Shown piece after piece: positions 1,624 to 32,133 of a stretch of DNA of 64,000 bases. The DNA lies in NCBI GenBank assembly GCA_031276865.1, contig JAISMF010000041.1, positions 1 to 64,000 of the forward strand, in the 5' to 3' direction. A model generated the notes under the pieces. That model was given only the letters and a program-made list of their open reading frames with translations. It was not told where the DNA came from and searched no databases. How positions within the stretch are numbered: the stretch's first letter is position 1; every line of letters starts with the position of its first letter. A program made the position numbers and the translations under genes. The DNA is from Deltaproteobacteria bacterium. GTDB taxonomy: Bacteria > Desulfobacterota > Desulfarculia > Adiutricales > Adiutricaceae.

Positions 1624-2727
1624 TCAAGACCATTCGGGGGCGAATTCGAAATCAGTTTGAATAAATGATTCCTTTTTATTCCAGTTAGCAAACGATGACT
1701 GGTAACAATTTTCGCATTCGGGCGTTGTCGAAAAACTGTTAACGCTTTTTCTGTGTTCGACAAATTGTTGCGACTGCCATGCGGTTATGAAATCAGAGGC
1801 GTCATTGATATGAAAGAATTTTTTTGATGTCGACATGCACGGCCTCACAAAACCATCGGAGCCGAGAAAAAAATCGCGCCAGGCTGTATAGCATTTTTTG
1901 TGAGGCGAATCTCCGGCGGGATCCTCTTTTTGCAGGTGGGGCAGCTTAAGGGAAACGCCACTCTTTTCGCTCTTTTCCATCGCCTGGTTAAACACGTCGG
2001 AAACCCATGACGTCTCGTTGTACAATGACTCGTCAAGCATTGTATCGTCAAAAGCGGTGAAATAAACTAATTTTACTTCGTTAAGGTTAAGATCGGCCGC
2101 TAAATCAATCATTTGAGGAAATTCGTTAAGATTGGATTTCATGGCGGTGAAAACAAAGTTGATCCAGGGCCAGGAAATATTTAAGCGGGTTTTTTCAGCG
2201 GTAATTGTTTTTAGCGTTCGGGTTATTTTATTGAAATCGCTCCCTCTGCGTATTTGATTATTTGTTTCAGCTTTGGCGCCGTCAAGACTCACCGCTATTA
2301 TTTCGCAATTATTATCAAAAATATTTTTAAACAAATGGTCTAATTTTAAACCGTTTGTGCAAAAATATTTTCTTAAATCGTTTTTAGCCGCCCAAGACAA
2401 AAAATCCGTGAAATGAGGATGAACGGTTGGTTCTCCCCAGCCCATTAAAGTAACTTCTTCCACATAAGGGAGAGCGGGATCGAAAAATTTCATCCATTCA
2501 GGGTCGAAATACGTGGGTTTAAAGGAAACAGTGTTCCGAGCGCAGGCCTTGCATCTGAGATTACAGGCGTTAGTCAGCTCGAATACCAATCTTCTTGGAA
2601 AGGAGGCGGGATTATGGTTTTCAGCCAAAGCTTCCGCTTCGTTAAGGGATGAATTGGATGTTTGACGGGAGCTGAGAGGTTTCCCGAAATTTTTCAAATC
2701 AATAGTTTTGGCTCTGAGAATATCCAT
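1624..2727 (-). CDS. Radical SAM/SPASM protein
   Basis: 367 residues. The radical SAM cluster motif is 'CNLRCKAC' (CX3CX2C) at about residue 54, preceded by 'LVFELTNA'. A GGE-equivalent 'GWGEP' follows near residue 96. The C-terminal part has cysteines in 'KKCYTAW', 'VRPCMS' and 'CENCYQ', as in SPASM auxiliary-cluster domains. SPASM enzymes modify peptides or carry out dehydrogenations and epimerisations on sugars and other substrates. No precursor peptide is visible nearby. The neighbours, a C-methyltransferase and a glycosyltransferase, favour a role in surface glycan or small-molecule modification, but that is inference. Lower GC than the surrounding housekeeping genes. It lacks the N-terminal Rossmann-like domain of the four paralogues at 25-31 kb. 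Confidence 0.85.
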   Translation of the reverse strand: MDILRAKTIDLKNFGKPLSSRQTSNSSLNEAEALAENHNPASFPRRLVFELTNACNLRCKACARNTVSFKPTYFDPEWMKFFDPALPYVEEVTLMGWGEPTVHPHFTDFLSWAAKNDLRKYFCTNGLKLDHLFKNIFDNNCEIIAVSLDGAKAETNNQIRRGSDFNKITRTLKTITAEKTRLNISWPWINFVFTAMKSNLNEFPQMIDLAADLNLNEVKLVYFTAFDDTMLDESLYNETSWVSDVFNQAMEKSEKSGVSLKLPHLQKEDPAGDSPHKKCYTAWRDFFLGSDGFVRPCMSTSKKFFHINDASDFITAWQSQQFVEHRKSVNSFSTTPECENCYQSSFANWNKKESFIQTDFEFAPEWS

Positions 2728-2848
2728 GGACGCCCCGCGGTAAAGGTTTATAAATAAGGTGAAAAGTTTAAAAAAAAATCAGGAAAAGAACGTTGGAAAG
2801 TTGATCTTCAGGTGTTTTTAATACCGTACTTATAAATATCCTCTTTAT

Positions 2849-4114
2849 TTAGTCACCGGTTAAAGTTAAAACCTGCCCTTTAAAATCTATTTCAGTCAGA
2901 TACGATTTAACACTGTGCTCAATTCCGTGAAACATTAAAAGCACTCTATCATTTTTTGTAAAATTATTTAATATTTCTGTCGGATGAATTTTTTTTCCTA
3001 AAATGGTACGCCTTTGCTTGTCGGTATCTTTGTCGATAAACCCGGCGATATTTTTGATTGAGATATAATTTTGTCCGATGAGAAGCTGGAGCAGCTGCGT
3101 AACGCCCCAAATCCATAGAGGTTCATGTGACTTAGCGATATTGTCAAGTTTTTCAAGAATGGAACTGTTTTTGGACAATTCTAAGTAGCGTGAAAAACCG
3201 CTAAAATCTTCTTGAATATTTTCGGTCGCGATTTTAATGTGATTTAACGCCGGAGCGGAAGGATCATCGGATCGTGAAGTTTCAGCCGCGGGCTTCAGTC
3301 TGGCGATCGCGTATAAAACCGGCGTGTAAAACCCGTCTTTTTCAGCGGTATGAAATATTGTTTTTCCTAATTTCAATACTTCAAATCCTGAAAGAATGAG
3401 CATATTGTTCAGGGAAGATGAAGTGAAATGCTGCAGATGTTCAAGATATAAATAATAAAACGGAGGCGTCTCCGCGGGGTAAGAACCGGCGTCCGGCAAT
3501 TCTATATAAACAAGTCCACCAGGCGCCATAAACTTTTTAATTTCAGTCAGAGCGGTCGCCGGATATAACAAATGTTCAAGAACATGAGAATAAACAGCCA
3601 GAGATGGCGAAAGGTTAATCTTGGGAAGATTTTGAGCTGAACCCGCGTAAGCGGTGAGTTTTTCATTCTTGAGCAATTCTACCGTTCTCGCGGACGGTTC
3701 AATAGCGATAACATTTTTGTAACCGGATTGAATCAGCTCTTTGGTGAGACCACCGCGTCCGGCGCCTATATCGAAGATAATACCGTTTTCCGTATTGTCG
3801 TACCACTCTTTTATTCTTTGAATTATTTCTCTTTGATGAGTTATATCCGCATCGGTTTGAGAGCCAGACCCGACATGAATATTTGAGGTATTGTATTCCT
3901 TTTCGACATAAATGTAAGTGATTTGCTCTTCAGTAAGATTGTTGTCATAAAATATATGGCCGCAATCGCCACAAAAAGCGAGCGTAAAATCGCCGGGTAT
4001 GGATGAACCGTCATAAGTTTGAAATTTAATTTTATCTAAATGAAAGCCGGTGGCGTTTTTGCAGATTGGGCACGGTTGGATAAATTTTTCAATATGCGAG
4101 GTCGCCAGATTCAT
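2849..4114 (-). CDS. Class I SAM-dependent C-methyltransferase, three-domain
   Basis: 421 residues in three parts. The N-terminus has a zinc-binding motif, 'CPICKNATG' with 'CGDCGH' (residues about 15-55), as in sugar C-methyltransferases of the TylC3/NovU type. The middle is a Rossmann methyltransferase with the SAM-binding loop 'IFDIGAGRGGLT' (about 114-125) and 'YSHVLEHLLYP'. The C-terminus (about 335-421) resembles the Methyltransf_14 domain, with 'LWIWGVTQLLQLL' and 'IAGFIDKDTDKQ'. Such enzymes methylate deoxysugar nucleotides or related substrates. It lies 121 bp upstream of the radical SAM gene in transcription order, so the two may form one transcript. AT-rich, consistent with acquired surface-polysaccharide material. 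Confidence 0.85.
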   Translation of the reverse strand: MNLATSHIEKFIQPCPICKNATGFHLDKIKFQTYDGSSIPGDFTLAFCGDCGHIFYDNNLTEEQITYIYVEKEYNTSNIHVGSGSQTDADITHQREIIQRIKEWYDNTENGIIFDIGAGRGGLTKELIQSGYKNVIAIEPSARTVELLKNEKLTAYAGSAQNLPKINLSPSLAVYSHVLEHLLYPATALTEIKKFMAPGGLVYIELPDAGSYPAETPPFYYLYLEHLQHFTSSSLNNMLILSGFEVLKLGKTIFHTAEKDGFYTPVLYAIARLKPAAETSRSDDPSAPALNHIKIATENIQEDFSGFSRYLELSKNSSILEKLDNIAKSHEPLWIWGVTQLLQLLIGQNYISIKNIAGFIDKDTDKQRRTILGKKIHPTEILNNFTKNDRVLLMFHGIEHSVKSYLTEIDFKGQVLTLTGD

Positions 4115-5222
4115 AATTATTACTCGTTATGCTGAAAGCTCCGTTTCTAATCGATTTTTACTTGGTAATATAAAAATGTCAGTCAGACGAACGCCACAAG
4201 GAGAGGTAAATGTTTACAAACAGGTCACGATAAGTATTTTCCATTTTAAATATGTACAAGCTAAATATATAGCAGATATTGCGTAACATGAACGGTTCAG
4301 TATTCAGTTTTTTTTAACGGTTAATTCGCCCGGAACTAATTCGCATTTTTGCCAGCCTAATAGGTTATCCTGTTATTTAGGGGAGATATAGAGGAATGAG
4401 CGGATCAACTATTTTGTAAACGATCGGCTCGTTATGCGCGTCGCAGTTAAAATGCAAGTGAAGCGCCACACGGTTACTTATATGAACAATTCCTGATGTA
4501 TACTATCGGCTGATGATATAAACTTAAACCGTCTGTAAAAATCTCTATCCCGAATTACTCGCCCTCGCCCCTGATATTTTTGCTTGGCGAATTACGGAAC
4601 TTACCGGATTCATCGGAAAAAATAAACGATCGCTTGTTGTCAACATGCGGGTGGAATAATCTTAAGTTAGTAAATTATACTGTAAAAATTGAATAAAATC
4701 AAGATAAAAGTTCATTTGTTAACGGATTCGGTATAAGGCGGCGCGGCAGGCGGCTTATGATAGGCAACATATGTATATATAAAAAAGTAAATTATATAAA
4801 ATTAATAATTATAATATTATTTTACATAATATTAAAAGACAACGGCGGCCCGCGGGAATCGGGCGTCAGGGAAAGCCGAGAGCTTTAAACGCTTGTAAAA
4901 AACGAAACGCCGACGTTCATAAGCGCCCACCAGGGGAGATGAAACAGCTCCCATGAACACAAAAAATGACGACGGGAAAGCGTATGAATTTACTGTAGCG
5001 TTTTTAGACACAGGGCGTTCAGGCGGCGATGTTGTTTTTGCGGATGGTTTCCAATCCACCCGTCATGGTTCGGGCGTGTTTATTCCATACGGTGGATTAA
5101 AGTCCATGACGGTTGAAAAGCTGATATGTTTCAGTATCCTTTTGACATTTCCAGCGTCTGTTCGGCACGGCTATCGGTTTTTCAAGAGGATGCTTTTCTA
5201 ACGTCTTTTAGAAAAATAGGTT
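4115..5222. other. 1.1-kb AT-rich gap without recognisable gene
   Basis: Only short frames that resemble nothing. Long A/T tracts occur around 4670-4840 and there is a small higher-GC patch at 4840-5170. Just downstream of the glycosyltransferase stop lies a weak AT-only inverted repeat (TTTTCTAA/TTTAGAAAA, 5194-5215) that may act as its terminator. The segment could be decayed coding sequence between transferred genes, but I cannot identify a parent. Confidence 0.5.
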
Positions 5223-6428
5223 TTACGCTACTTTTTTTGTAAGCATGCTCAAGAAATCTTTAGACGGCTGGTGAGCCGGAGTGTGTTCCAGCTGCTGAAT
5301 AAGCGCAAGCTGCGTCTCCTTGTTCCTCCCCAAAGCGTTGTAGAGAACCGCCTTGGCGAAGTGAATAAAAGGATATCCCGGCATCAGCGCCTCGACAAAT
5401 TCCATTTCCTGAATGAGTCTTGCGACATACACGAAATCCAGGTGATGATATCTGGTTCGGTCGATTTCCTCTTTGTTTATTTCTTTTAAATCGTCTTCCC
5501 ATCCTTGTCTGAATTTGGCTAAGGAAATCAACTTCAGCGCCCTCTGGAGCTCAAAGTGAATCTGGCCCTGATAGCGGCTCAATAATGCGGAAATAGCAGG
5601 TTTAACAAGCTTGTCTTTTTCTTCCAGCGAAAGATCGGAGTGGGCTATCAGCTTGCAGTGGTTGTGTATATAGTTTATAGTCGGAAGCCTGATTCCCTGT
5701 CCGGACGGAGATGCGTTCATTTTATCGATTTTTAAATATCTATCCAATAAGCCGTGGGGTAGTTTTTCTTTCTGAGAACTATCCTTAGTTCTCTGAAGGA
5801 GTATTTCCGGCACTTGCAGAATTCTCCCTTGAAGCGCTAGATTGGCTAAGAGGAGATTGTCCCCGGCTAAATCTTCATTATATAGATACATGGTAAACAT
5901 GTATGATTTAGCGGCATTAAAAGTCCGCATGACGCCTAAGAACGGCGTTGTCCAGCCTAAATATTTTATAACGTTTAAAAAGCGCGTAGAGGGATCGGGG
6001 TCGTCGAAAGTTATTTTGTCGAAGTATATCTCATCGGTTTTTTTGTCATCGTCTAGAAACTGGCAGTAGGGGTAGGCGACCAGGGCGTCGGGGTTTTCTT
6101 CAAGGGTCTGCACGCACTTCTCGGCCATAGACGGCTTCCAAACCAAATCGGCCGCGGCGTAGGCGGTAAAAGGACTGCTGTGAGCCATGAACAGATGAGC
6201 GAAGTTAAAAATAAGCCCTAAATTTTCAGGATTTTTGGAATAAACGATTCTCGAGTCGCGGCTCGCCATGTTCTTGCAGATTTTTCCGGTGTTGTCCTCG
6301 GAGTTGTTGTCCGAGACGAGGATCCTGATATCCTCCATGGTCTGGCTCGTCAGGGACTTCAAAAGAGTGGCGATTGTTTTTTCTCCGTTGTACACCGGTA
6401 CGCAGATCGTGAGTTTGGGCTCGGCCAT
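5223..6428 (-). CDS. Family 2 glycosyltransferase
   Basis: 401 residues. The N-terminal 230 form a GT-A fold: 'LTICVPVYNGEKTIATLL' at the start, 'ILVSDNNSEDNT' (nucleotide-binding region) and 'FTAYAAADLVWKPSM'. The last stands where GT2 enzymes have the DxD-like metal-binding step; here it reads AAAD, so metal use is unclear. The C-terminal 170 residues are helical and may be a tetratricopeptide-like or substrate-recognition part, seen in '...YPFIHFAKAVLYNALGRNKETQLAL'. Probably transfers a sugar in synthesis of a surface glycan, in the cytoplasm. Same strand as the C-methyltransferase, but 1.1 kb separates them. Acceptor and donor cannot be predicted. Confidence 0.85.
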   Translation of the reverse strand: MAEPKLTICVPVYNGEKTIATLLKSLTSQTMEDIRILVSDNNSEDNTGKICKNMASRDSRIVYSKNPENLGLIFNFAHLFMAHSSPFTAYAAADLVWKPSMAEKCVQTLEENPDALVAYPYCQFLDDDKKTDEIYFDKITFDDPDPSTRFLNVIKYLGWTTPFLGVMRTFNAAKSYMFTMYLYNEDLAGDNLLLANLALQGRILQVPEILLQRTKDSSQKEKLPHGLLDRYLKIDKMNASPSGQGIRLPTINYIHNHCKLIAHSDLSLEEKDKLVKPAISALLSRYQGQIHFELQRALKLISLAKFRQGWEDDLKEINKEEIDRTRYHHLDFVYVARLIQEMEFVEALMPGYPFIHFAKAVLYNALGRNKETQLALIQQLEHTPAHQPSKDFLSMLTKKVA

Positions 6429-16678: not shown

Positions 16679-18799
16679 TCAGTCGGCCTCTTCGGGCTCC
16701 ACGCCCAGGATGGCGTTCGCGAAGTCCTCCTTGTCGAAAGGCTTGAGGTCCTCGTAACTTTCCCCGATTCCGATGAAAATGACCGGAAGTTTCAGCTCAT
16801 AACAGATGGAGACCACCACCCCCCCCTTGGAGGTTCCGTCCAGTTTGGTCACGATGATGGAGTCCACCCCCACCGCCTCGTTGAAGGTCTGCGCCTGGCG
16901 GGAGGCGTTCTGGCCTGTGTTGGCGTCCAAAATGAGAATCGTCTCGTGCGGGGCGCCGGGAACGGCTTTGCCGGCCACCTTTTTGATTTTCTTGAGCTCC
17001 TCCATGAGGTTGGCTTTCGTGTGGAGCCTTCCGGCCGTGTCTATTATCACGACGTCGGTTTTACGAGCCTTGGCCGCCGTGACGGCGTCGAAGACGACGG
17101 CCGCGGCGTCGGCTCCGGTGGACTGGCCCACGAAGTCCGTGCCGAGGCGTTCGGACCAGACGCGCAGCTGCTCCACCGCCGCCGCTCTAAAGGTGTCTCC
17201 GGCCGCCAGAAGAACCGTCTGATCCCTCTTGATGAAGGTCTGGGCGAGTTTGGCTATGGTGGTGGTCTTGCCCACGCCGTTCACGCCCACCACCAGAATC
17301 ACCCGGGGAGGGGTTTCCGGGATGAGGTCCTTCGGCGGGACGTCCAGCATTTCAACGAGAGCGTCCCTGAGGGCGATTTTCAGGGCGTCCGCGTCTTTCA
17401 GCTCCTTTCTGGCCACCTTGGTTTTCACGCGTTCGAGGAGGCTTTCGGTGGTTGGAACGCCTAGATCGCTGGTGTAGAGAATCTCCTCCAGCTCCTCTAA
17501 GACGCTCTCGTCGATGCTCCTTGTCGACGCCAGGACCTTTTCCAAGCGTCCGGCTATTTTGCCTCTCGTGGAGGAAAGCCTCTCTTTGAGCCGGGAAAAC
17601 CAGCCTTTTTTCGCCTTTTCAGGCTCTTCGGGAGCCGGCGCTTCCTCCGGGACTGGGACTGAGGGCTCTTCCGCCGGAACAGCCTCCTCTGCCGCTTCGG
17701 AATCCGGAAAACCGGTTTGGGAGGAGTCCAGAACGGGTTCGATTCCGCTTTTTTCGGGAAAAGAAGAGTCTAATACCGGTTCGACCTCGGGGTCGGGCGG
17801 CGCTTCCTCCGCTAAACCCGGTCCGGGTTCGGGCGGGGCGGGAACCGTTTCTACAAAAAGCGGTCCGCTTTCAGGCTCCGTGGGACTTGATTCCTCAAAA
17901 ACCAGTCCGGGTTCAGACGGAGCGGGAACCGTTTCTACAAAAAGCGGTTCGTTTTCAGGCTCCGCGGGACTTGATTCCTCAAAAACCGGTCCGTGTTTAG
18001 ACGGAGCGGGAACCGTTTCTACAAAAAGCGGTCCGCTTTCAGGCTCCGCAGGACTTGATTCCGCGAAAACCGGTCCGGGTTCAGGCGGGGCGGGAATTGA
18101 ATCCTCGAAAACCGGTCCTCTTTCTGGTTCTGCGGGACTTGATTCTTCGAAAACCGGTCCGGTTTGAGGCGGAGCGGGAATTGATTCCTCGAAAATCGGT
18201 CCGGGTTCAGGCGGGGCGGGAACCGTTTCTTCAAAAAGCGGTCCTGGTTCAAGCACAGCTGGACTTGATTCTTCGAAAACCGGTCCAGTTTGAGGCGGAG
18301 CGGGAGTTGATTCCTCGAAAACCGGTTCAGTTTGAGGCGGAGCGGGAATTGATTCCTCGAAAACCGATCCGGGTTCGGGCGTGGCGGGAAGCGGTTCTTC
18401 AAAAAGCGGTCCGGGTTCGGGTGGTTCAAAGATTTCTCCGCTAAAAACCGGTTCCGATAGGTTTTCCTGAGGGGATGGTTCCTCTAAAACCGCCGCTGAA
18501 GCGGGCCGCTCCGCTAAAAGCTCTTCGGCGGCGGGGCCGGTGGCCTCGAGCTCTTCGGGGACGGTCTCCTTTTCGCCGCTTTCCGGCCCGGCGCTTTGTT
18601 CGGATTTGCCGCCTTTGGACGAGAAAAGAAAGGAGAAGAACCCCTTTTTCTTGGGAGCTTCGGCGGGAGCGACGGAAGGCCCGCCTCCGGCTTCCCGCCC
18701 GGCGGCCGGGCCGCCGGCGCCGTCTTGAGCCTTCTCTTCCGGGGAGGGTTCGGGGGGAGGGGGGGTTTTAGGAGTCTTCTTGCGGAAAAAATCAAACAT
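16679..18799 (-). CDS. ftsY: Signal recognition particle receptor FtsY with expanded repeat N-terminus
   Basis: 706 residues. FtsY is the membrane-associated GTPase that docks SRP-ribosome complexes at the translocon. The conserved NG part occupies about 398-706: N-domain 'GWFSRLKERLSSTRGK', P-loop 'GVNGVGKTTTIAKLA' (505-519), 'DTFRAAAVEQL', 'IIDTAGRLHTKANLMEEL' and 'TKLDGTSKGG' (651-660). All GTPase motifs are intact. The acidic A-domain is hugely expanded: residues about 128-330 are a 14-residue tandem repeat of the type GPVFEESSPAEPEP, acidic and proline-rich. The ATG overlaps the last 8 nt of smc, so the genes are co-transcribed and probably coupled. The usual E. coli A-domain is about 200 residues, here about 400. 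Confidence 0.97.
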   Translation of the reverse strand: MFDFFRKKTPKTPPPPEPSPEEKAQDGAGGPAAGREAGGGPSVAPAEAPKKKGFFSFLFSSKGGKSEQSAGPESGEKETVPEELEATGPAAEELLAERPASAAVLEEPSPQENLSEPVFSGEIFEPPEPGPLFEEPLPATPEPGSVFEESIPAPPQTEPVFEESTPAPPQTGPVFEESSPAVLEPGPLFEETVPAPPEPGPIFEESIPAPPQTGPVFEESSPAEPERGPVFEDSIPAPPEPGPVFAESSPAEPESGPLFVETVPAPSKHGPVFEESSPAEPENEPLFVETVPAPSEPGLVFEESSPTEPESGPLFVETVPAPPEPGPGLAEEAPPDPEVEPVLDSSFPEKSGIEPVLDSSQTGFPDSEAAEEAVPAEEPSVPVPEEAPAPEEPEKAKKGWFSRLKERLSSTRGKIAGRLEKVLASTRSIDESVLEELEEILYTSDLGVPTTESLLERVKTKVARKELKDADALKIALRDALVEMLDVPPKDLIPETPPRVILVVGVNGVGKTTTIAKLAQTFIKRDQTVLLAAGDTFRAAAVEQLRVWSERLGTDFVGQSTGADAAAVVFDAVTAAKARKTDVVIIDTAGRLHTKANLMEELKKIKKVAGKAVPGAPHETILILDANTGQNASRQAQTFNEAVGVDSIIVTKLDGTSKGGVVVSICYELKLPVIFIGIGESYEDLKPFDKEDFANAILGVEPEEAD
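17810..18418 (-). repeat. 42-bp coding minisatellite in ftsY
   Basis: About 14 imperfect tandem copies of a 42-bp unit that encode 14-residue repeats alternating between P.FEES(S/T/I)PA and P.LFVETVPAP types. Some neighbouring copies are nearly identical at the DNA level, for example around 17870-18040, implying recent duplication. The copy number may vary between strains and may be miscounted in a short-read assembly. Confidence 0.9.
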
Positions 18800-22840: not shown

Positions 22841-22917
22841 TGGTCGGGACGACTGGATTTGAACCAGCGGCCCCCTGAACCCCATTCAGGTGCGCTACCA
22901 GGCTGCGCCACGTCCCG
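22841..22917 (-). tRNA. tRNA-Pro (anticodon GGG)
   Basis: 77 nt including the encoded 3' CCA (22841-22843). Acceptor stem CGGGACG pairs with CGTCCCG. The D-arm contains AGCCTGGTAGCGCA. The anticodon stem CCTGA/TCAGG encloses loop ATGGGGT with anticodon GGG. The T-arm carries GGTTCAAATCC. It reads CCC and CCU proline codons. A -10-like hexamer lies about 66 nt upstream and a terminator follows directly, so it is a single-gene transcript. Confidence 0.97.
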
Positions 22918-23640: not shown

Positions 23641-24714
23641 TTAAATACAAAACAGAATAGTGTCGGACCAATTATAGGTAGCGTGCCTGATATACATTTT
23701 GTAATTCGGATTAATATTGTTAATTAAAAGAGGTAAATCATAGAAATCAAAATATCTATGATATATTGATATTGCTAATTTGGGTTGGAATTTTTGTAAA
23801 ACATGGACAGATCCTTTGATGGCGCTGTTTTCATGGCCTTCTATATCCATTTTTATAAAGTTTACATGTTTTATGTCTCTTTCAGTTACGAATTCATCAA
23901 TAGTAGTCGTTTTAATTTCAAGGTATTTATCGGAGATGTTATGTTTTTCATCATCTACTATCATGCTTATTTCCTCGTTGTCGCTTAATTTTGCGAATGA
24001 ACTTTGATCTGATAATCCTTTTTCTATCACTGTAATGTTTAACCTGTTATTATTTTTGATATTTTCATTTAATATATTTGCGATTTTATGATTTGGCTCA
24101 AATGCGTAAACTATTCCGCCAGGACTGACGGCTGATTCAAAATATAACGCGCTGTCACCGTAAAAAGCTCCGGCGTCTATTACTGTATCGCCTTTTTTGA
24201 CCTCGACAATACCGGGTATTTCGTATTGACTGTTGAAATAAACCTGTTTAACGGATCTTTTGATCATTTCCGCTGGACCATCAAGTAAAGGTATGGGGTA
24301 CTTCGGAACATTATTAGAATAGGAAGGACGCAGAGCGGGTTCCATTCTGGATATCCAGTAAGTTAAACGGTATTTAACAGCTTCAAAATAAATTTGTTTG
24401 CTGGTGTCATCGCTTAATAAATTTAAAACGCTGTTTAATTTATCAACGTTTTCCAGGTATTTCAGCATAAATTCGAATAGATCAGACCTGCTGTCATGGA
24501 ACTGTCGCTTGCAGTCTTTTATTATCTGTTCAGGTAAGTCATGAAAAACATTTTTGATTTCTTTGTTAAAAGAGATGTTTACATGGTAAATTTGAGTAAA
24601 AGGTATTATTTTTATCTTGCACTTACAAAGTTTAGCCATATAATTGGCTATCGGTAAGCAAAAAGTTGAAAATATAAAGTTAATAATTTTATGCAAGACA
24701 TCAACCTCACGCAT
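23641..24714 (-). CDS. FkbM family SAM-dependent methyltransferase
   Basis: 357 residues. The FkbM methyltransferase domain spans about 180-330: SAM loop 'DTVIDAGAFYGDSALYF', acidic loop 'YAFEPNHKIANIL', and 'NFIKMDIEGHENSAIKG', the FkbM hallmark. The N-terminal 170 residues are helical and unassigned. FkbM enzymes O-methylate hydroxyls on sugars, polyketides or lipids. The gene is strongly AT-rich, unlike the flanking housekeeping genes, and opens the second island that also holds the radical SAM array. The ATG at 24714 is used here; a TTG at 24696 with GAGG 7 nt upstream is an alternative start. Confidence 0.88.
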   Translation of the reverse strand: MREVDVLHKIINFIFSTFCLPIANYMAKLCKCKIKIIPFTQIYHVNISFNKEIKNVFHDLPEQIIKDCKRQFHDSRSDLFEFMLKYLENVDKLNSVLNLLSDDTSKQIYFEAVKYRLTYWISRMEPALRPSYSNNVPKYPIPLLDGPAEMIKRSVKQVYFNSQYEIPGIVEVKKGDTVIDAGAFYGDSALYFESAVSPGGIVYAFEPNHKIANILNENIKNNNRLNITVIEKGLSDQSSFAKLSDNEEISMIVDDEKHNISDKYLEIKTTTIDEFVTERDIKHVNFIKMDIEGHENSAIKGSVHVLQKFQPKLAISIYHRYFDFYDLPLLINNINPNYKMYIRHATYNWSDTILFCI

Positions 24715-25201: not shown

Positions 25202-26536
25202 CTAATCGTTTTTAATATCAAAAACTTCTGCGGTCAGGATTTTACCGCAGAAATTCGCATCAGCTTTTTCACACATGGCGCAAGTTTCTGATGTCGCAAC
25301 TAACTGAACAAGCTCAGTTAGAGGTTTTTCAAGGAAATTATCAGCAACAGTTGGCATGTAGTAAACACCGCATACTCTGACGTTGAGGTTCCAGTTTATT
25401 GAAAAAGTACGGTTTTCAAAGCAACGGTTGTCGGGACTTTTCTTTATGCTTCCATCCAGGAGTTTGATAGAAAAGGGTGTCAGCAGGGTCAGCTGTTTTT
25501 TTGCCTCGGAGCTTATTTCACGCCCGAGCCTTATCTTCACGTGGTTTTCTCGCGGATATAAACTTGCTAGAACCGGCCTGAAAGTAACCCCCAGGTTTTC
25601 CGCCAGCTCCTTAACTTTTTCAAAATCTTCAGTATTATGGATGTATCTGTGGAAATAAAGTTCTATTTCAATGTCTTTTTGAAATTTATTCTTCATTTCC
25701 ACCAAATCATTAAGGTTTTTGTAGAAAAGTTCCCATTTCGCCCCGGTATGCGTAATTTCATAATTATCTTTCCAGCCGGAGCAGGAAACTCTGACAATAT
25801 CGGGAGCTGATTTGACAAATTTTTCCATGTCCACGGGCAGGCTGAGATTGGAAGAGATTATGGATAACACCATTCTTTCTTTATTGATGGCGATTATTTC
25901 ATGGATATGCTTATTTAAAAGCGGTTCACCCCAGGTATAGAGCTGTACTTCACCTAGAAATGGAATTTCCCTGAGAAGTTTGTCTATAACCAGCGTATAG
26001 GTATCCGGCTTCATAAATCCGACTGGCGGATGCTCGCGCATGTTGCCGCGGGGGCAGCCAATGCACCTGAGATTGCAGACTCCGGATATGTCAATACTGG
26101 GAAATATCGGAACTAGATCGTAGACAGAGATATAATGGATATTCTCTTTTAAACCGTACTGAGCGAACTCTTCAACAAATTCATCCTGCCAGTACCCGGA
26201 AGTCATGATGATAAAAATATCATTCGCCGCGTTTTCTCCGCCAAGTATCTCCGCCGGGTTGTACACAGGTTTTCCATGTAATATTTTACCTTTTAATCTC
26301 GGGCTGGAATCCAAATACCCCTCAATGTCTATTCCCTCTCTTTTCAGACCGGATGCGATGCCCTGTCCTACGAAGGCCGCTCCGCGCAGATATAATTTTT
26401 TAATTCCTATCAAAGAGCGGAGATCGTCCGCGGAATACTTGTTGAATGTGATTTCCTGTAGAAACGGAGGAAATATAAACTTCTCCCCGCTATCGGGCCT
26501 GCATACCGGAGTATTGATTTCTGTTGAAAAAGTCAT
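25202..26536 (-). CDS. Radical SAM/SPASM protein with N-terminal Rossmann-like domain (paralogue 1)
   Basis: 444 residues. The N-terminal domain (about 45-140) has an alpha/beta pattern: 'KKLYLRGAAFVGQGIAS', 'GYLDSSPRLKGK', 'KPVYNPAEIL' and 'DIFIIMTSGYW'. The radical SAM core starts at 'SGVCNLRCIGCPRGN' (CX3CX2C, about 154-168), followed by 'LYTWGEPLLN' (GGE position) and 'VSIISSNLSL'-like strands. The SPASM-like C-terminus has cysteines in 'NRCFEN', 'VRVCGVYY' and 'CAMCEKADANFC'. This is the most divergent of four paralogues, with an N-terminal extension of about 40 residues. Transcribed last in the array, 23 bp behind paralogue 2. Substrate unknown; no precursor peptide is visible. Confidence 0.85.
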   Translation of the reverse strand: MTFSTEINTPVCRPDSGEKFIFPPFLQEITFNKYSADDLRSLIGIKKLYLRGAAFVGQGIASGLKREGIDIEGYLDSSPRLKGKILHGKPVYNPAEILGGENAANDIFIIMTSGYWQDEFVEEFAQYGLKENIHYISVYDLVPIFPSIDISGVCNLRCIGCPRGNMREHPPVGFMKPDTYTLVIDKLLREIPFLGEVQLYTWGEPLLNKHIHEIIAINKERMVLSIISSNLSLPVDMEKFVKSAPDIVRVSCSGWKDNYEITHTGAKWELFYKNLNDLVEMKNKFQKDIEIELYFHRYIHNTEDFEKVKELAENLGVTFRPVLASLYPRENHVKIRLGREISSEAKKQLTLLTPFSIKLLDGSIKKSPDNRCFENRTFSINWNLNVRVCGVYYMPTVADNFLEKPLTELVQLVATSETCAMCEKADANFCGKILTAEVFDIKND

Positions 26537-26559
26537 TGCTTTTCCTTAAACGAGCTAAA

Positions 26560-27810
26560 TTAATTTTGAGGCAAACTCTTGCGTTTTTCAATTAATGACT
26601 CATCGCCGTAAACAAGAAAACAGCGATGTATTCCTTCACTTTGGCAATATTTACAAAAACTGCTGTTAGAACGGGCGTTCAGAATGTCTTCTATCGGGGT
26701 ATCTAAAAAATTAGTTTCGGTAAGCACCATGTCAGGATTATACCATTCCATGCAATGCATTATTTTTAAATCCCAGGTTATCCACAGGCAACGTGTGTAC
26801 GGGCATGGTAGCTCTTTATTTTCTCTCGCTATTTCCATAGCCTCGGGCACGCTTAATGTCTGGAGGGACTGAGTTTTTTTTACAGCCTCGGTTACGGGCG
26901 CTCCTTTAATGATCGCTTCAATATTATCAAGCGGGGCGATGGCGGCGTGTCGGACCCTCAACGTGAAATTCAGGCTGTCGCAAAGCTCCGCCATTTGTTT
27001 GTAATCCTCGTCTCTGTCTTTATAGATATGATAAAAGACTTCGGTATTCATTTGAGGATGAAATTGCTCGCGTAAGTCTCTTAATTTATACATATTATTG
27101 AGAAATAGATCCCATTTTCCTCCGGTATGGGTAATTTCATAACTTGCACCATAACCGGAAGTGGATACTCTAAACCAGGTTGGCTTAGCTTTTATCGTAT
27201 CGGTAAAATCTTTTTTTAAGCTCAGGTTGCTGGATATAGCAGCGTTAACGCCTTTTTTGTTGCAAATTCCAACAATTTCAGGGAGTTGGGGGTTTAAAAG
27301 TGGCTCCCCCCAGTTATAAAGGGCGACAGCTCCAGCCATAGGGTCTTCATGTACAATTTTATCAAGAACCTTGCTGAAAACGTCAGCGGTCATGAATCCT
27401 GGTTTAGCGTGACGGGTGAGGTTTCCCCTGGGGCATGAAATGCACTTAAGGTTGCATGAGCCGGAAATATCAATCTGATAGTCGAATGTTTGCAGTTCCT
27501 GGGCCGCGACAAAATCTTGTTCGTGGGAAAATCCATGTTTTCGGCAGCAATCTGATATTTCGGGCGCGTAGAAGCCTGACGTTATTACAATAAAATTGTC
27601 TTCAGGGGGTTTTGACAGTATATCATCGGGATTAAGTACAGGGCGACCGAGAACGATTTTACCTTGCAAATTAGGGCTGGAATCCAAAAAGCCTTTAACG
27701 TTCAGTCCTTCTTTTGAAAAAGAGTTCAGCATGCTGAATCCCAGTTGACGAGCTCCCCACAGATAAATATCTCGGGTTTCAGCAACTTTTACGATATCAT
27801 TAATGTTCAT
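26560..27810 (-). CDS. Radical SAM/SPASM protein with N-terminal Rossmann-like domain (paralogue 2)
   Basis: 416 residues. N-terminal domain: 'RDIYLWGARQLGFSML', 'GFLDSSPNLQGK', 'RPVLNPDDIL' and 'NFIVITSGFY'. Radical SAM motif 'SGSCNLKCISCPRGN' at about residue 117, 'ALYNWGEPLLN' at the GGE position, and 'ISTSGYGASYEITHTGGKW'-like substrate-face segment (the protein reads RVSTSGYGASYE). SPASM cysteines lie in 'LPCPYTRCLW', 'MHCMEW' and 'CKYCQSEGIHRC'. Closely related to paralogues 3 and 4, so the array grew by tandem duplication. AGGA lies 8 nt before the ATG. The next gene upstream is 170 bp away. Confidence 0.87.
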   Translation of the reverse strand: MNINDIVKVAETRDIYLWGARQLGFSMLNSFSKEGLNVKGFLDSSPNLQGKIVLGRPVLNPDDILSKPPEDNFIVITSGFYAPEISDCCRKHGFSHEQDFVAAQELQTFDYQIDISGSCNLKCISCPRGNLTRHAKPGFMTADVFSKVLDKIVHEDPMAGAVALYNWGEPLLNPQLPEIVGICNKKGVNAAISSNLSLKKDFTDTIKAKPTWFRVSTSGYGASYEITHTGGKWDLFLNNMYKLRDLREQFHPQMNTEVFYHIYKDRDEDYKQMAELCDSLNFTLRVRHAAIAPLDNIEAIIKGAPVTEAVKKTQSLQTLSVPEAMEIARENKELPCPYTRCLWITWDLKIMHCMEWYNPDMVLTETNFLDTPIEDILNARSNSSFCKYCQSEGIHRCFLVYGDESLIEKRKSLPQN

Positions 27811-27979
27811 AGTGCGGGTCCTGGTTGTATGGACGGTTAAAAACTTTAAATTTGCTAGACAGATTTAAGCCGGCGGAGCGCTGTGATTATCAATAAACAC
27901 CGTGATGATAGAACAATAAAGCGATATACAAGCCGCTTTCTAAAAAAAATAAAAGAACCTGATTAAGATGTAAAAGAGT

Positions 27980-29224
27980 TTATGTTAACTTGTTCCTTTC
28001 GTGCACTATATTGTCATCAATATACATAAGCATATAGCGATGGATAGCTCTTTCTTTGCACATTTTGCATAAATCGCAGTCTTTACGCAGTTTGATGATT
28101 TCTTCAAGAGGAGTTTCTAAATAGTCAACATTGGATAGTATATGCCCAGGATCATACCAGCATGAGCACTTCAAAATTTTTGTATTCCAGGTAATAGGGA
28201 GGCACCGAAGAAAATTACATGGAAATTCTTTAGTTTTTTTAGCCATTTCTATGGCTTCATCGCTTTTGAGGGTTTGAAGTAATATTGTTTTTCGCGCTTC
28301 CTTAGTTAATGGTTCTCCGGTAATAATTGAGTTGATATTGTCCAAAGGCATCAAAGCCGCATGGCAAACCCTGAGTGTGAAATTAAGTTCACCGCAGAGT
28401 TCAGCCATTTTTTTATAATCATCCGTCCTGTCTTTATATAGATGATAAAAAACCTCTACATCCATATCAGGGTTGTATTCTTCACGCCAGTCCCTTAAAT
28501 TGTGTAAATTTTTTAAAAATAAATCCCATTTTCCTCCGGTATGAGTAACTTCGTAGCTAGCTCCGAAGCCGGAAGTAGATACCCTGAACCAGGCCGGCCT
28601 GGCTTTTATAGTTTCAACAAAGCTTTTTCTAATATTTAAATTGCTTGAAACCGAAGCGAGAATTCCATTGTCATTGCAAATTTTTATTATTTCAGGCAGT
28701 TCGGTATTTAACAGAGGCTCTCCGAATATATAGAGACCTACAGCGCCAGTAAGCGGATCTTCTTTAATGATTTTGGAAAGCACCTTTTCAAAAGTTTCAG
28801 CTCTCATAAAACCCGCCTCAGGGTGATTTCTCATGTTCCCTCTCGGGCAGGATATGCATTTGAGATTGCAGCTACCTGATACATCAATCAAGTAGTCTAA
28901 TCTTTGCAGCTCATGGGCGGCGATAAAATCTTTTTTGTGTATAAATCCTGACTCGTTGCATGCGTTTGATATTTCGGAAACGTATAATCCGGCTGTTATA
29001 ATAATAAAACTTTGGTCAGTCGGTTTGGATAGAATGTCATTTGGGGAAAAAACAGGCTGTCCTTGAATAAATTTACCCTGAATGTCGGGGCTTGAATCTA
29101 AAAAACCCTTAACTGTCATTCCTTCTCTTGTAAACGAGTTAAGCGTGCTGAATCCAAGCCTTCTCGCTCCCCAAAGATAAATATCACGGGATTCAGCTAT
29201 TTTTTTTACCTCGCTAAGATTCAT
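27980..29224 (-). CDS. Radical SAM/SPASM protein with N-terminal Rossmann-like domain (paralogue 3)
   Basis: 414 residues. Same architecture as paralogue 2: 'RDIYLWGARRLGFSTLN', 'GFLDSSPDIQGK' and 'QPVFSPNDIL', then 'SGSCNLKCISCPRGNMRNH', 'GLYIFGEPLLN' (FGEP where the others have WGEP or LGEP) and C-terminal cysteines in 'FPCNFLRCLP', 'LKCSCWY' and 'CDLCKMCKERAIHRY'. Start is set at the ATG at 29224, matching paralogue 4. An ATG 12 nt earlier sits only 1 nt behind AAGGAG and is unlikely to be used. In both genes the AAGGAG/GAGGAG is about 13 nt from this ATG, a long spacing. A decayed copy of a 94-bp inverted-repeat element lies just upstream. Confidence 0.87.
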   Translation of the reverse strand: MNLSEVKKIAESRDIYLWGARRLGFSTLNSFTREGMTVKGFLDSSPDIQGKFIQGQPVFSPNDILSKPTDQSFIIITAGLYVSEISNACNESGFIHKKDFIAAHELQRLDYLIDVSGSCNLKCISCPRGNMRNHPEAGFMRAETFEKVLSKIIKEDPLTGAVGLYIFGEPLLNTELPEIIKICNDNGILASVSSNLNIRKSFVETIKARPAWFRVSTSGFGASYEVTHTGGKWDLFLKNLHNLRDWREEYNPDMDVEVFYHLYKDRTDDYKKMAELCGELNFTLRVCHAALMPLDNINSIITGEPLTKEARKTILLQTLKSDEAIEMAKKTKEFPCNFLRCLPITWNTKILKCSCWYDPGHILSNVDYLETPLEEIIKLRKDCDLCKMCKERAIHRYMLMYIDDNIVHERNKLT

Positions 29225-29292
29225 GATTGAAATCATTCTCCTTAAAATTCAGATACGTGTGTGAAGCTTTTTTGATTTCACTCGTTCTTGAA

Positions 29293-29385
29293 TATTACTC
29301 CGGCGGTTAAATTGTATGATAAGCCAAGTATAAAGACAGGGATGAAGACCGCAATTATTCTAACTTTTATCAGCCGTGGTAAAGT
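29293..29385 (+). mobile_element. Decayed copy of a 94-bp TIR element (MITE-like)
   Basis: The left end, ATTACTCCGGCGGTTAAAT, is identical to that of the element at 34597-34690, and the interior shares GTATAA.GACAGGG and TAACTTTTATC at matching positions. The right terminal repeat has diverged (CAGCCGTGGTAA instead of CCGCCGGAGTAAT). Same orientation and nearly the same length. It lies between paralogues 3 and 4 of the radical SAM array. Confidence 0.7.
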
Positions 29386-29576
29386 TATAAATGAGTGCGG
29401 ACTGTGACAGCTCTTTTAATGGTAGATGCGGAGTATTTAAGTAATTATGACGTATATAAACACCCACTTCGAAAACGTTTGACGTATTGTATTTGGGATT
29501 AACGCCCGAACAGATTGCGCGGCTCAGTGTATCCAATCCAGCGCTAGGTTAAGTAAATGATAAGAACGTAAAGTTG
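29386..29576. other. Intergenic remainder between SPASM paralogues
   Basis: No coding sequence or small peptide gene with a ribosome-binding site could be seen on either strand. Confidence 0.4.
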
Positions 29577-30827
29577 TTAATTTTTGTATAAACTATCCTT
29601 TTTACGCACTAACGACTCGTCAAGATAGGCATTAAAATAGCGATGTAATCCATTTTTCCTACACAATTTGCATAATTCACAGCTATTTCTCAATCTGACA
29701 ATTTTTTCCAGCGGAATATCCAAAAAATCCTCATCGCTTATTCTGAGTTTCGGATCGTACCAACAAGAGCATGCCATGACTTTAGAATCCCATGTTATCG
29801 CCAATGAGCTGAGTACGGTGCAAGGCAAATTTTGAGTTTTTTTAGCTATCGACATTGCTTCCGTTACGCTCAAAATTTGTAGTTCCATCGTTTTTATGGC
29901 TTCTTCTGTTAGAGTTTCTCCTTCTAGAAAAGAATTGATATTGTCTAGAGCTAAAAGAGCCGCATGGCATACACGTAATGAAAAATTTAATTCTTTGCAC
30001 AATTTAGCCATTTTTTGGTAATCTTCAGTTCTATCTTTATAAAGGTGGTAAAATACCTCCACTTGCATCTCAGGATTGTATTTTTCACGCCAATAATTAA
30101 GTTTATACATATTATCTAAAAATAAATTCCAATTACCTCCACGGTGAGTTATCTCATAACTTGATCCGTACCCTGACGCTGAAATTCTGAATAAGGCTGG
30201 CTTGGCTTTGATTGTGTCGACAAAGCTTTTTTTTATGTTTATATTGCTTGATAGTGTGGCGAGCACTCCTTTGCTGTTACAAATTTCTACAATTTCAGGA
30301 AATTCAGGATTCAATAATGGTTCTCCAAGATTATAGAGGGCTATCGCTCCGGTTAGAGGATCTTCTCTAACGATTTTGGTTAATACTTTTTCAAAATGAC
30401 TAGCGCTCATGAATCCAGGTTTCGGGTGAATCCGCCTGTTGCCCCTAGGGCATGATAGGCATTTTAGATTGCAAACTCCTGAAACGTCTACAATATAATC
30501 ATATGTCTGAAGCTCTAATGCGGCTATATAGTCTTTGTTATGCGAAAGTCCCGATTCGTCGCAGACGTTGGATATTTCATTAACATGCAGTTCAGAAGTG
30601 ATGACGATAAAATTGTCCGCCGGCGGCTTCGCTAATATCTCGTTCGGAGGGAAAACAGGCTGGCCCCGTACAACTGTTCCCTGGATGTCGGGGCTGGAGT
30701 CTAGAAAACCCTTGACTAGAACCCCTTCTTTGGCTAATGAATTCAGAGTGCTGAACCCGACTCTCCTGGCCCCCCACAGGTAAATATCGCGGGATTCGGA
30801 TATTTTTTTCACTTCTTCAAGATTCAT
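29577..30827 (-). CDS. Radical SAM/SPASM protein with N-terminal Rossmann-like domain (paralogue 4)
   Basis: 416 residues from the ATG at 30827. The frame is open for 28 further codons, but paralogues 2 and 3 start at the equivalent of 30827, and GAGGAG lies 13 nt upstream. Architecture as in its neighbours: 'RDIYLWGARRVGFSTLN', 'GFLDSSPDIQG', 'QPVFPPNEIL', then 'SGVCNLKCLSCPRGNRRIH', 'ALYNLGEPLLN', and SPASM cysteines in 'LPCTVLSSL', 'MACSCWY' and 'CELCKLCRKNGLHRY'. First in transcription order. AT-rich. The conserved TSGYGSSYEITH-type segment after the core is shared by all four and may face the substrate. Confidence 0.87.
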   Translation of the reverse strand: MNLEEVKKISESRDIYLWGARRVGFSTLNSLAKEGVLVKGFLDSSPDIQGTVVRGQPVFPPNEILAKPPADNFIVITSELHVNEISNVCDESGLSHNKDYIAALELQTYDYIVDVSGVCNLKCLSCPRGNRRIHPKPGFMSASHFEKVLTKIVREDPLTGAIALYNLGEPLLNPEFPEIVEICNSKGVLATLSSNINIKKSFVDTIKAKPALFRISASGYGSSYEITHRGGNWNLFLDNMYKLNYWREKYNPEMQVEVFYHLYKDRTEDYQKMAKLCKELNFSLRVCHAALLALDNINSFLEGETLTEEAIKTMELQILSVTEAMSIAKKTQNLPCTVLSSLAITWDSKVMACSCWYDPKLRISDEDFLDIPLEKIVRLRNSCELCKLCRKNGLHRYFNAYLDESLVRKKDSLYKN

Positions 30828-31227
30828 GGCAGTATCAAATCTCCTCACAGCCGGTCCGCTTATGTTTTGAAAAGCGGACTCTCGAAAAGACGAGCCGTAT
30901 TTCCCGAGCAAATTTTAGCAAAAGCTGTGCCATAAAAGTTAAAGTATTTTAGTAACATCTATATGATGTATTTTAGTATAATATTTTGCCTATATATGGT
31001 GGAGTATTTACTCTGTATTTCCCGAAATGTCACCGCTCCGGAGGCGCGGAGACAACCGGGCGGCGGTTGAAAAAGTGAATTCGGGATTTCAATCAGCGCC
31101 CGTCTTTCACGATTCGGCGTTTTTTTAAGGTCGGTCTGAACTTGCGGTATAATTTCGTCCGCGGAAAAACCGCGCCTGGAGCTACGCCCAGAAGGGAGCT
31201 TCGGGGGAAAAAAATTCCCACCCGCCT
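30828..31227. other. Intergenic boundary of island 2, no gene
   Basis: AT-rich near 30950-31010, then GC-rich from about 31020. This is the sharp compositional edge between the radical SAM array and tyrA. No gene or clear terminator. Confidence 0.45.
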
Positions 31228-32133
31228 CTACTTAAGCCTGTAGCTCTTTTTTTCCTTCTCCGGGAGCTTTCGGCGGTAGGAGGCGATGGAGTCGAGCAAC
31301 TCGAAGAGCTCGGGGCGCTTTCTTCCGGAGACCAGGGTTTTCATCTCCGTAAGGACGTCTATCAAGGCCCCCAGATCCCGGGTCAGGTTTTCGGCGTTGT
31401 CCATGACCACGGCCACCCATTTTTCCGGAGGCGAGGCCCCCACCCGGGTGCTGTCCCTAAAGCCGGTTCCGGCGTAGGGTAGCGCCGGAAACCCCTCCAG
31501 GCGCTGGACCGTTCCGGCCAGGGCGGCGGCCGAGAGATAGGGAAGGTGGCTCACCACCGAGTATACTCTGTCGTGCTCGGCGGGGGAGAGGCGACGAATG
31601 TCGCATTCCAGGAGCTCGTGGAGGGCCTTGAGGCGGCCGAAGAGCTCCTTTTGGGGGCGTCCGAAGCGCTCGTCCGGGGTGAGGATGAAAAGGCAGCCCC
31701 GGATCAGATCCCCGGAGGAGTTGGAAAAGCCCGCCACCTCTTTTCCGGCGATGGGGTGCCCCCCGCAGTAGTTGAGGCCGGCTTCGAGGGCGGCCAAGTT
31801 GGTGGCGGATTTCGTGCTCCCCGAGTCGGTCACGGCGGGGCCGTACTTCCGGCGGCCCATTTCCCGGATCATCTCTATGTTGCGGTGCACCGGCATGCAG
31901 AGGTACGCCAAATCCAGATCGAATCCGAGAAACTCCTCCAAATCCCCGGTGGCTTTTTTAAAGCGGCGGATTCTTCCGGCCTCCTCCAAGGTGTTCGGGT
32001 CGGAATCGTAGACGCTTATTTCGAGGCCGGCCAAAGGGGAGAAGGCCTTGGCCAGGGATCCTCCGATGAGCCCCAGGCCGGCTATGCCCAGGCGGCGGAA
32101 GGGAAGCCTCGGGGGCAGTTTGAATTTGGGCAT
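31228..32133 (-). CDS. tyrA: Prephenate dehydrogenase family protein
   Basis: 301 residues. TyrA oxidatively decarboxylates prephenate to 4-hydroxyphenylpyruvate for tyrosine synthesis. N-terminal NAD(P) site 'LGIAGLGLIGGSLAKAF' (GxGxxG, about 15-31), 'YDSDPN' after the second strand, 'VTDSGSTKS', 'GGHPIAGKEVAGF' with the catalytic His region, and 'SVVSHLPYLSAAALAG' in the helical dimerisation domain. No chorismate mutase or ACT domain is fused, and no other aromatic amino acid genes adjoin. Family membership is clear. Arogenate versus prephenate preference and NAD versus NADP cannot be decided by eye. Confidence 0.9.
   Translation of the reverse strand: MPKFKLPPRLPFRRLGIAGLGLIGGSLAKAFSPLAGLEISVYDSDPNTLEEAGRIRRFKKATGDLEEFLGFDLDLAYLCMPVHRNIEMIREMGRRKYGPAVTDSGSTKSATNLAALEAGLNYCGGHPIAGKEVAGFSNSSGDLIRGCLFILTPDERFGRPQKELFGRLKALHELLECDIRRLSPAEHDRVYSVVSHLPYLSAAALAGTVQRLEGFPALPYAGTGFRDSTRVGASPPEKWVAVVMDNAENLTRDLGALIDVLTEMKTLVSGRKRPELFELLDSIASYRRKLPEKEKKSYRLK

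Follow-up and report, generated by a model that had tools for sequence, protein, structure and literature searches.

Ordered arrays of radical SAM/twitch proteins with an N-terminal Rossmann-like module: a family probably involved in bacterial surface-glycan biosynthesis

Introduction

Radical SAM work on sugars mostly rests on enzymes of antibiotic pathways, namely, BtrN, DesII, BlsE, and NeoN. DesII and BlsE act on nucleotide-linked sugars (a TDP-sugar and cytosylglucuronate, respectively), and both are encoded by single secondary-metabolism genes. BtrN, a 2-deoxy-scyllo-inosamine dehydrogenase of ~250 residues (PDB 4M7S and 4M7T), has a free antibiotic aminocyclitol as its substrate. BtrN oxidizes this aminocyclitol, and four C-terminal cysteines of its twitch domain bind one auxiliary cluster (PMC9012708).

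Two further kinds of system are relevant here. The N-termini of NeuD, PglD, VioB, and PerB and the C-termini of TcaB9/KijD1-type C3-methyltransferases share a domain of common fold and length with a GFxD....G.PV motif, which is fused to acyltransferases or SAM methyltransferases. Flagellin glycosylation islands, in turn, place nucleotide-sugar genes, methyltransferases, and a glycosyltransferase beside flagellin. The flagellin-glycosylation papers that we found contain no mention of radical SAM proteins, and in the literature that we searched, no paper describes radical SAM arrays at loci for flagellin or O-antigen.

Here, we describe a protein family and compare it with these systems. Its members resemble BtrN in their radical SAM core, in a four-cysteine twitch end, and in a sugar-like substrate, which is predicted; they differ from BtrN in carrying a Rossmann-like module and in being encoded in arrays. 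DesII and BlsE are among their fold matches, but the TM is low (~0.4) and the accessory domains are different. The module shares the fold, length, and motif of the NeuD and C3-methyltransferase domains, but it is fused to a radical SAM protein and its glycine motif is degenerate. Three of the loci (in genomes G201 and G224 and on contig C100 of the genome under study, G000) resemble flagellin glycosylation islands in the genes that lie next to flagellin, and here radical SAM arrays are a core part of the system. Twitch radical SAM sugar enzymes are a known kind; what is unusual in this family is the module fusion, the ordered arrays, and the glycan context.

Results

The window, i.e., the entire stretch of 64,000 nucleotides that was analyzed, had been the subject of a preliminary description made from the sequence alone, which reported four consecutive paralogues at positions 25202 to 30827. 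Four tandem minus-strand open reading frames were found at these coordinates, encoding proteins A (29577..30827), B (27980..29236), C (26560..27810), and D (25202..26536). Protein A starts with ATG, with a TTG at 30911 upstream as a possible alternative. Pairwise identity is 59 to 64% among A, B, and C and 34 to 37% between D and B, as expected from the earlier division into three close relatives and one divergent one. An FkbM-family methyltransferase gene (23641..24714, minus strand; PF05050, E value of 2.5e-21; TIGR01444 above cut-off) lies in the same AT-rich island, whose GC content is 0.36 to 0.43 versus roughly 0.54 to 0.62 for most of the remaining window. The island is adjoined by a tRNA-Pro(ggg) gene (22841..22917, minus strand) and, on the opposite flank, by a prephenate-dehydrogenase-like gene (31228-32133). 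It was considered as a tRNA-targeted integrative element and rejected as such: no integrase was seen, and tRNA-Pro has the island on its 5' side. In the G219 and G298 stretches compared as possible empty sites, tyrA was not beside smc, and promoter and terminator scans gave chance-level results only. Elsewhere in the window, a second AT-rich glycan island (1624-6428, minus strand) encodes a radical SAM/SPASM protein (1624-2727), a C-methyltransferase (2849-4114), and a family 2 glycosyltransferase (5223-6428), and 16679-18799 encodes an FtsY-like protein whose long N-terminal extension is repetitive (PAPPEPGPVFEES-type repeats).

All four array proteins match Radical_SAM (PF04055), although the gathering score is exceeded by D only. 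Across 24 homologues, the three cysteines of the CxxxCxxC motif for the SAM cluster (C123, C127, and C130) and four C-terminal cysteines (C340, C357, C390, and C393) are invariant, and no other C-terminal cysteine is, so that all seven can be assigned to two clusters; protein A retains the CNLKCLSCPRGN core and the four twitch cysteines. SPASM (PF13186) gave no Pfam match in A to D, a full SPASM domain requires at least seven C-terminal cysteines, and the glycine preceding X4C in the C-terminal region is replaced in the array proteins. By sequence, the C-terminus is of the twitch type, with one predicted auxiliary cluster, rather than a full SPASM domain. The layout proposed in the preliminary description thus held for the Rossmann-like stretch of ~110 residues and for the CxxxCxxC radical SAM core, while its SPASM-like end is replaced by a four-cysteine twitch. 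The TSGYGxSYEITH segment, which had been singled out for a check of conservation, contains an S-x-S-G....Y..TH pattern whose positions (S220, S222, G223, Y228, T231, and H232) are identical in all 24 aligned homologues.

By sequence, the radical SAM core is matched best in the PDB by BtrN (E value of 3.5e-5). The full-length structure model of protein B (pLDDT of 74, pTM of 0.79) matched SuiB and SkfB at the top, together with BlsE, viperin, DesII, and EpeE, all at low TM; judged from this model, whole-protein Foldseek cannot tell peptide enzymes from sugar enzymes. No family-level profile of Pfam or NCBIfam reaches its cut-off with A to D. TIGR04317 is the best NCBIfam match for all four, and membership in it was rejected at 44 to 63 bits versus a cut-off of 380; NF033640 ("twitch domain-containing radical SAM protein") scores 23 to 34 bits versus a cut-off of 170. 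Similarity to both families is of the generic radical SAM/twitch kind, with scores that exclude membership, and the array family is named by none of the curated profiles searched.

The N-terminal Rossmann-like domain of B is encoded at 28898..29236 (minus strand), and its model has a pLDDT of 90; the alignment places equivalent domains at 30501-30827 in A, 27484-27810 in C, and 26102-26449 in D, all on the minus strand. A profile check of this stretch, as had been recommended, yielded no Pfam assignment in A to D and weak NCBIfam matches to the N-terminus of TIGR03570 (NeuD), with E values from 7e-5 (protein C, the best) to 0.08, below the whole-protein cut-off. When the module was modeled alone, its nearest folds were the Rex NAD-binding domain, VioB, WeeI, PglB, PerB, and the C3-methyltransferase KijD1. 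The matched VioB structure is a complex with a TDP-amino sugar; the best match is Rex, which binds NAD and fits as well as the sugar-nucleotide domains do. Structure prediction had been proposed as a check for a ligand-binding Rossmann fold; the modeled fold is Rossmann-like, but its GxGxxG motif is degenerate, with the second glycine replaced in most copies. A module profile built from 24 proteins matched C-methyltransferases of the same clusters at their C-termini (E values of 6e-9 to 1e-3), in line with the likeness first noted, and also matched an FkbM protein and other radical SAM proteins there at their N-termini. In the window, the C-methyltransferase at 2849..4114 (minus strand; PF13489) carries the module at its C-terminus (E value of 1.4e-4, residues 336 to 398 of the open frame). 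By these matches in C-methyltransferases, an FkbM protein, and other radical SAM proteins, the module is one common to glycan-tailoring enzymes, and by its sequence and modeled fold, it appears to be a sugar-nucleotide domain of the NeuD/PglD/VioB type.

To follow the advice of surveying genomes for this fusion and its neighbors, we searched the phylum and found the array family in 4 of 395 genomes, including G000; targeted searches added G298, G299, and G339. Homologous tandem arrays, lying within sugar-building clusters, are present in G278, G339, G201, and G224. The G298 coordinates match CP026658, a 65-kb plasmid with six copies; it belongs to Deltaproteobacteria bacterium Smac51, which comes from the hindgut of a cockroach and is of the same family as G000. 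This plasmid is rich in glycan genes, among them those for a perosamine synthetase and an RMNT_CmcI protein, and its six radical SAM array proteins are annotated as hypothetical. In a search of plasmids, relatives occurred solely on those of Smac51 and Methylocystis; none was found in viral contigs or phages, and a genome-contig scan with a single query sequence gave one weak match.

In the tree, clade I comprises the first gene of each array, clade II includes D, and clade III is made up of the last genes; the G278 array has an extra member between clades I and II. The genes follow the order I-II-III in G278, G201, and G224; G339, whose second gene is only partly read, fits this order. The window array consists of three clade I genes (A and B, which are sisters, and C) and one of clade II, with no clade III gene. 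D groups with G298_4, although long branches leave the placement of D and of some G298 copies uncertain. dN/dS is 0.06 to 0.23 for orthologous pairs in which dS is unsaturated. The idea that the array diversifies a glycan fared unevenly: different families have kept a set of orthologous enzymes in order, and only the triplication of clade I in the window looks like local diversification.

The arrays of four genomes come after CDP-deoxysugar genes and before one conserved glycosyltransferase. rfbF, rfbG, rmlC, and SDR genes directly adjoin the array in G201 and G224; the neighbors in G278 are rfbF, rmlC, an SDR gene, and an RfbG-like SDR gene below the TIGR02622 threshold used, and rmlC and an SDR gene were seen on the short contig of G339. 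The glycosyltransferase follows the array in G278, G339, G201, and G224 and is also present on the G298 plasmid, where no CDP cassette lies near the arrays. A distant Methylocystis plasmid homologue, which aligns over the radical SAM core only, lies ~10 kb from an rfbF-rfbG-MTase-rfbC-SDR cluster. rfbF is present in all array genomes, but its presence in the array-free G322 means that it is not diagnostic alone. The glycosyltransferase was detected in 11 of 390 genomes (4/4 with arrays versus 7/386 others; Fisher P value, 3.5e-7); since array neighbors had gone into the glycosyltransferase profile, this co-occurrence is circular in part, and we use it as support only. A tandem triple of another sort, made up of ~340-residue radical SAM/SPASM proteins that lack the module, is found in G398 (locus L067, 13960-17043); it lies in an rfbF-rfbG-rmlC-SDR-FkbM-B12-rSAM-type cassette with a glycosyltransferase of the same kind after it.

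In the window, A to D are adjoined by no nucleotide-sugar gene, only by the FkbM methyltransferase gene. In G000, which is 85% complete, rfbF was found, with no rfbG match at the threshold used. Its CDP-sugar and glycosyltransferase genes lie outside the window, and were thus invisible to the preliminary description: on contig C100, two flagellin genes flank rmlC, rfbF, and the gene for the array-type glycosyltransferase, so that flagellin adjoins the sugar locus and not the array. One very long flagellin (1,111 amino acids; locus L055, 6733-10068) is encoded on this contig near rfbF, rmlC, and the glycosyltransferase. The G201 and G224 arrays adjoin flagellin and other flagellar genes, and the stretches of G278 and G298 showed no flagellin gene.

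Discussion

Collectively, the observations of the preliminary description were confirmed, and its view that the enzymes act on sugars and not on peptides is largely supported by the nucleotide-sugar and glycosyltransferase contexts of the arrays, by the sequence and fold matches of the module, and by the lack of room for a precursor gene. The explanation that we favor, and consider probable as a whole, is that A to D belong to a radical SAM/twitch enzyme family that takes part in building surface glycans. In our judgment, it is very likely that the substrates are sugars and likely that these are CDP-linked 6-deoxyhexoses or the glycan made from them, while flagellin is the leading candidate for the acceptor, with a little less than an even chance.

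For the module ligand, the substrate, the chemistry, and the acceptor, we infer the following scheme. The N-terminal module would hold a nucleotide-linked sugar, or else the same partner that NeuD/PglD/VioB acyltransferases and sugar C-methyltransferases use. In the radical SAM barrel, a 5'-deoxyadenosyl radical would abstract hydrogen from a hydroxyl-bearing carbon of the sugar, and the four-cysteine twitch cluster would accept the electron to yield a keto sugar, as in BtrN. The substrate is probably a CDP-6-deoxyhexose supplied by RfbF, RfbG, RmlC, and SDR enzymes, or else the glycan that the array-adjoining glycosyltransferase makes from it, and each array position (clades I, II, and III) may target a different carbon or sugar residue. 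We propose the BtrN-like oxidation tentatively. A possible but less favored outcome within the same glycan role is epimerization, in which hydrogen would be returned to the other face of the carbon with Cys281 or another residue as the donor, as in NeoN or EpeE. Cys281 is a candidate donor, being present in 21 of 24 homologues and in every member of clades I and III, and the full-length model has EpeE among its fold matches; however, Cys281 is missing from D, from its nearest relative G298_4, and from G298_3, and BtrN, which the core matches by sequence, is an oxidase.

It is unlikely that the window array is a decaying or nonfunctional transplant. Such a reading would draw on its lack of clade III, on the location of the sugar cassette on another contig, on the departure of A and B from the RCLW...CMEW clade signature (C has RCLWITWDLK...CMEW, as seen in orthologues of other genomes), and on a spacing of 341 and 169 bp between genes that are tightly packed in arrays elsewhere. 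Against it, all four frames are intact with every cluster cysteine retained, and dN/dS is 0.12 for B and C, the sole window pair with unsaturated dS.

More improbable is that the proteins are RiPP maturases acting on a ribosomal peptide whose gene is close by or elsewhere, even though numerous radical SAM/SPASM proteins mature peptides and SuiB and SkfB head the fold matches of the full-length model. The radical SAM genes overlap or almost touch in G278, G201, and G224, which leaves no space for a precursor gene between them. A search for small open reading frames in the window intervals and across loci returned only shadow frames inside the radical SAM and other large genes, so that the absence of a precursor, first noted in the window, extends to the other loci, and no adjacent conserved precursor peptide was found. 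The array neighbors are sugar enzymes, and the best profiles score far below their cut-offs, with no RiPP maturase profile near its own. Least probable is a role as maturases of an oxidoreductase or metalloenzyme, as the name of the top NCBIfam match (TIGR04317, tungsten cofactor oxidoreductase radical SAM maturase) would have it, since that match falls far short of its cut-off and lies mostly over the generic radical SAM core, other glycan-cluster radical SAM proteins score better against it, and no tungsten oxidoreductase gene was seen among the array neighbors.

The surface-glycan reading can be extended, with considerable doubt, to a modular assembly line. Ordered arrays of paralogous twitch enzymes, each enzyme with a sugar-nucleotide-type module that the methyltransferases of the cluster also have, would alter one position after another on a CDP-deoxysugar or on the glycan of flagellin, and would spread from one bacterium to the next by plasmid. 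The module-free triple of G398, in a cassette of the same kind, would then hint at a general design. Should the arrays indeed work on sugars of the surface or the flagellum, bacteria would regularly use radical chemistry to diversify their surface glycans, by a defined set of enzymes with a candidate partner glycosyltransferase and, in the CDP-6-deoxyhexoses, a class of substrates that can be tested.
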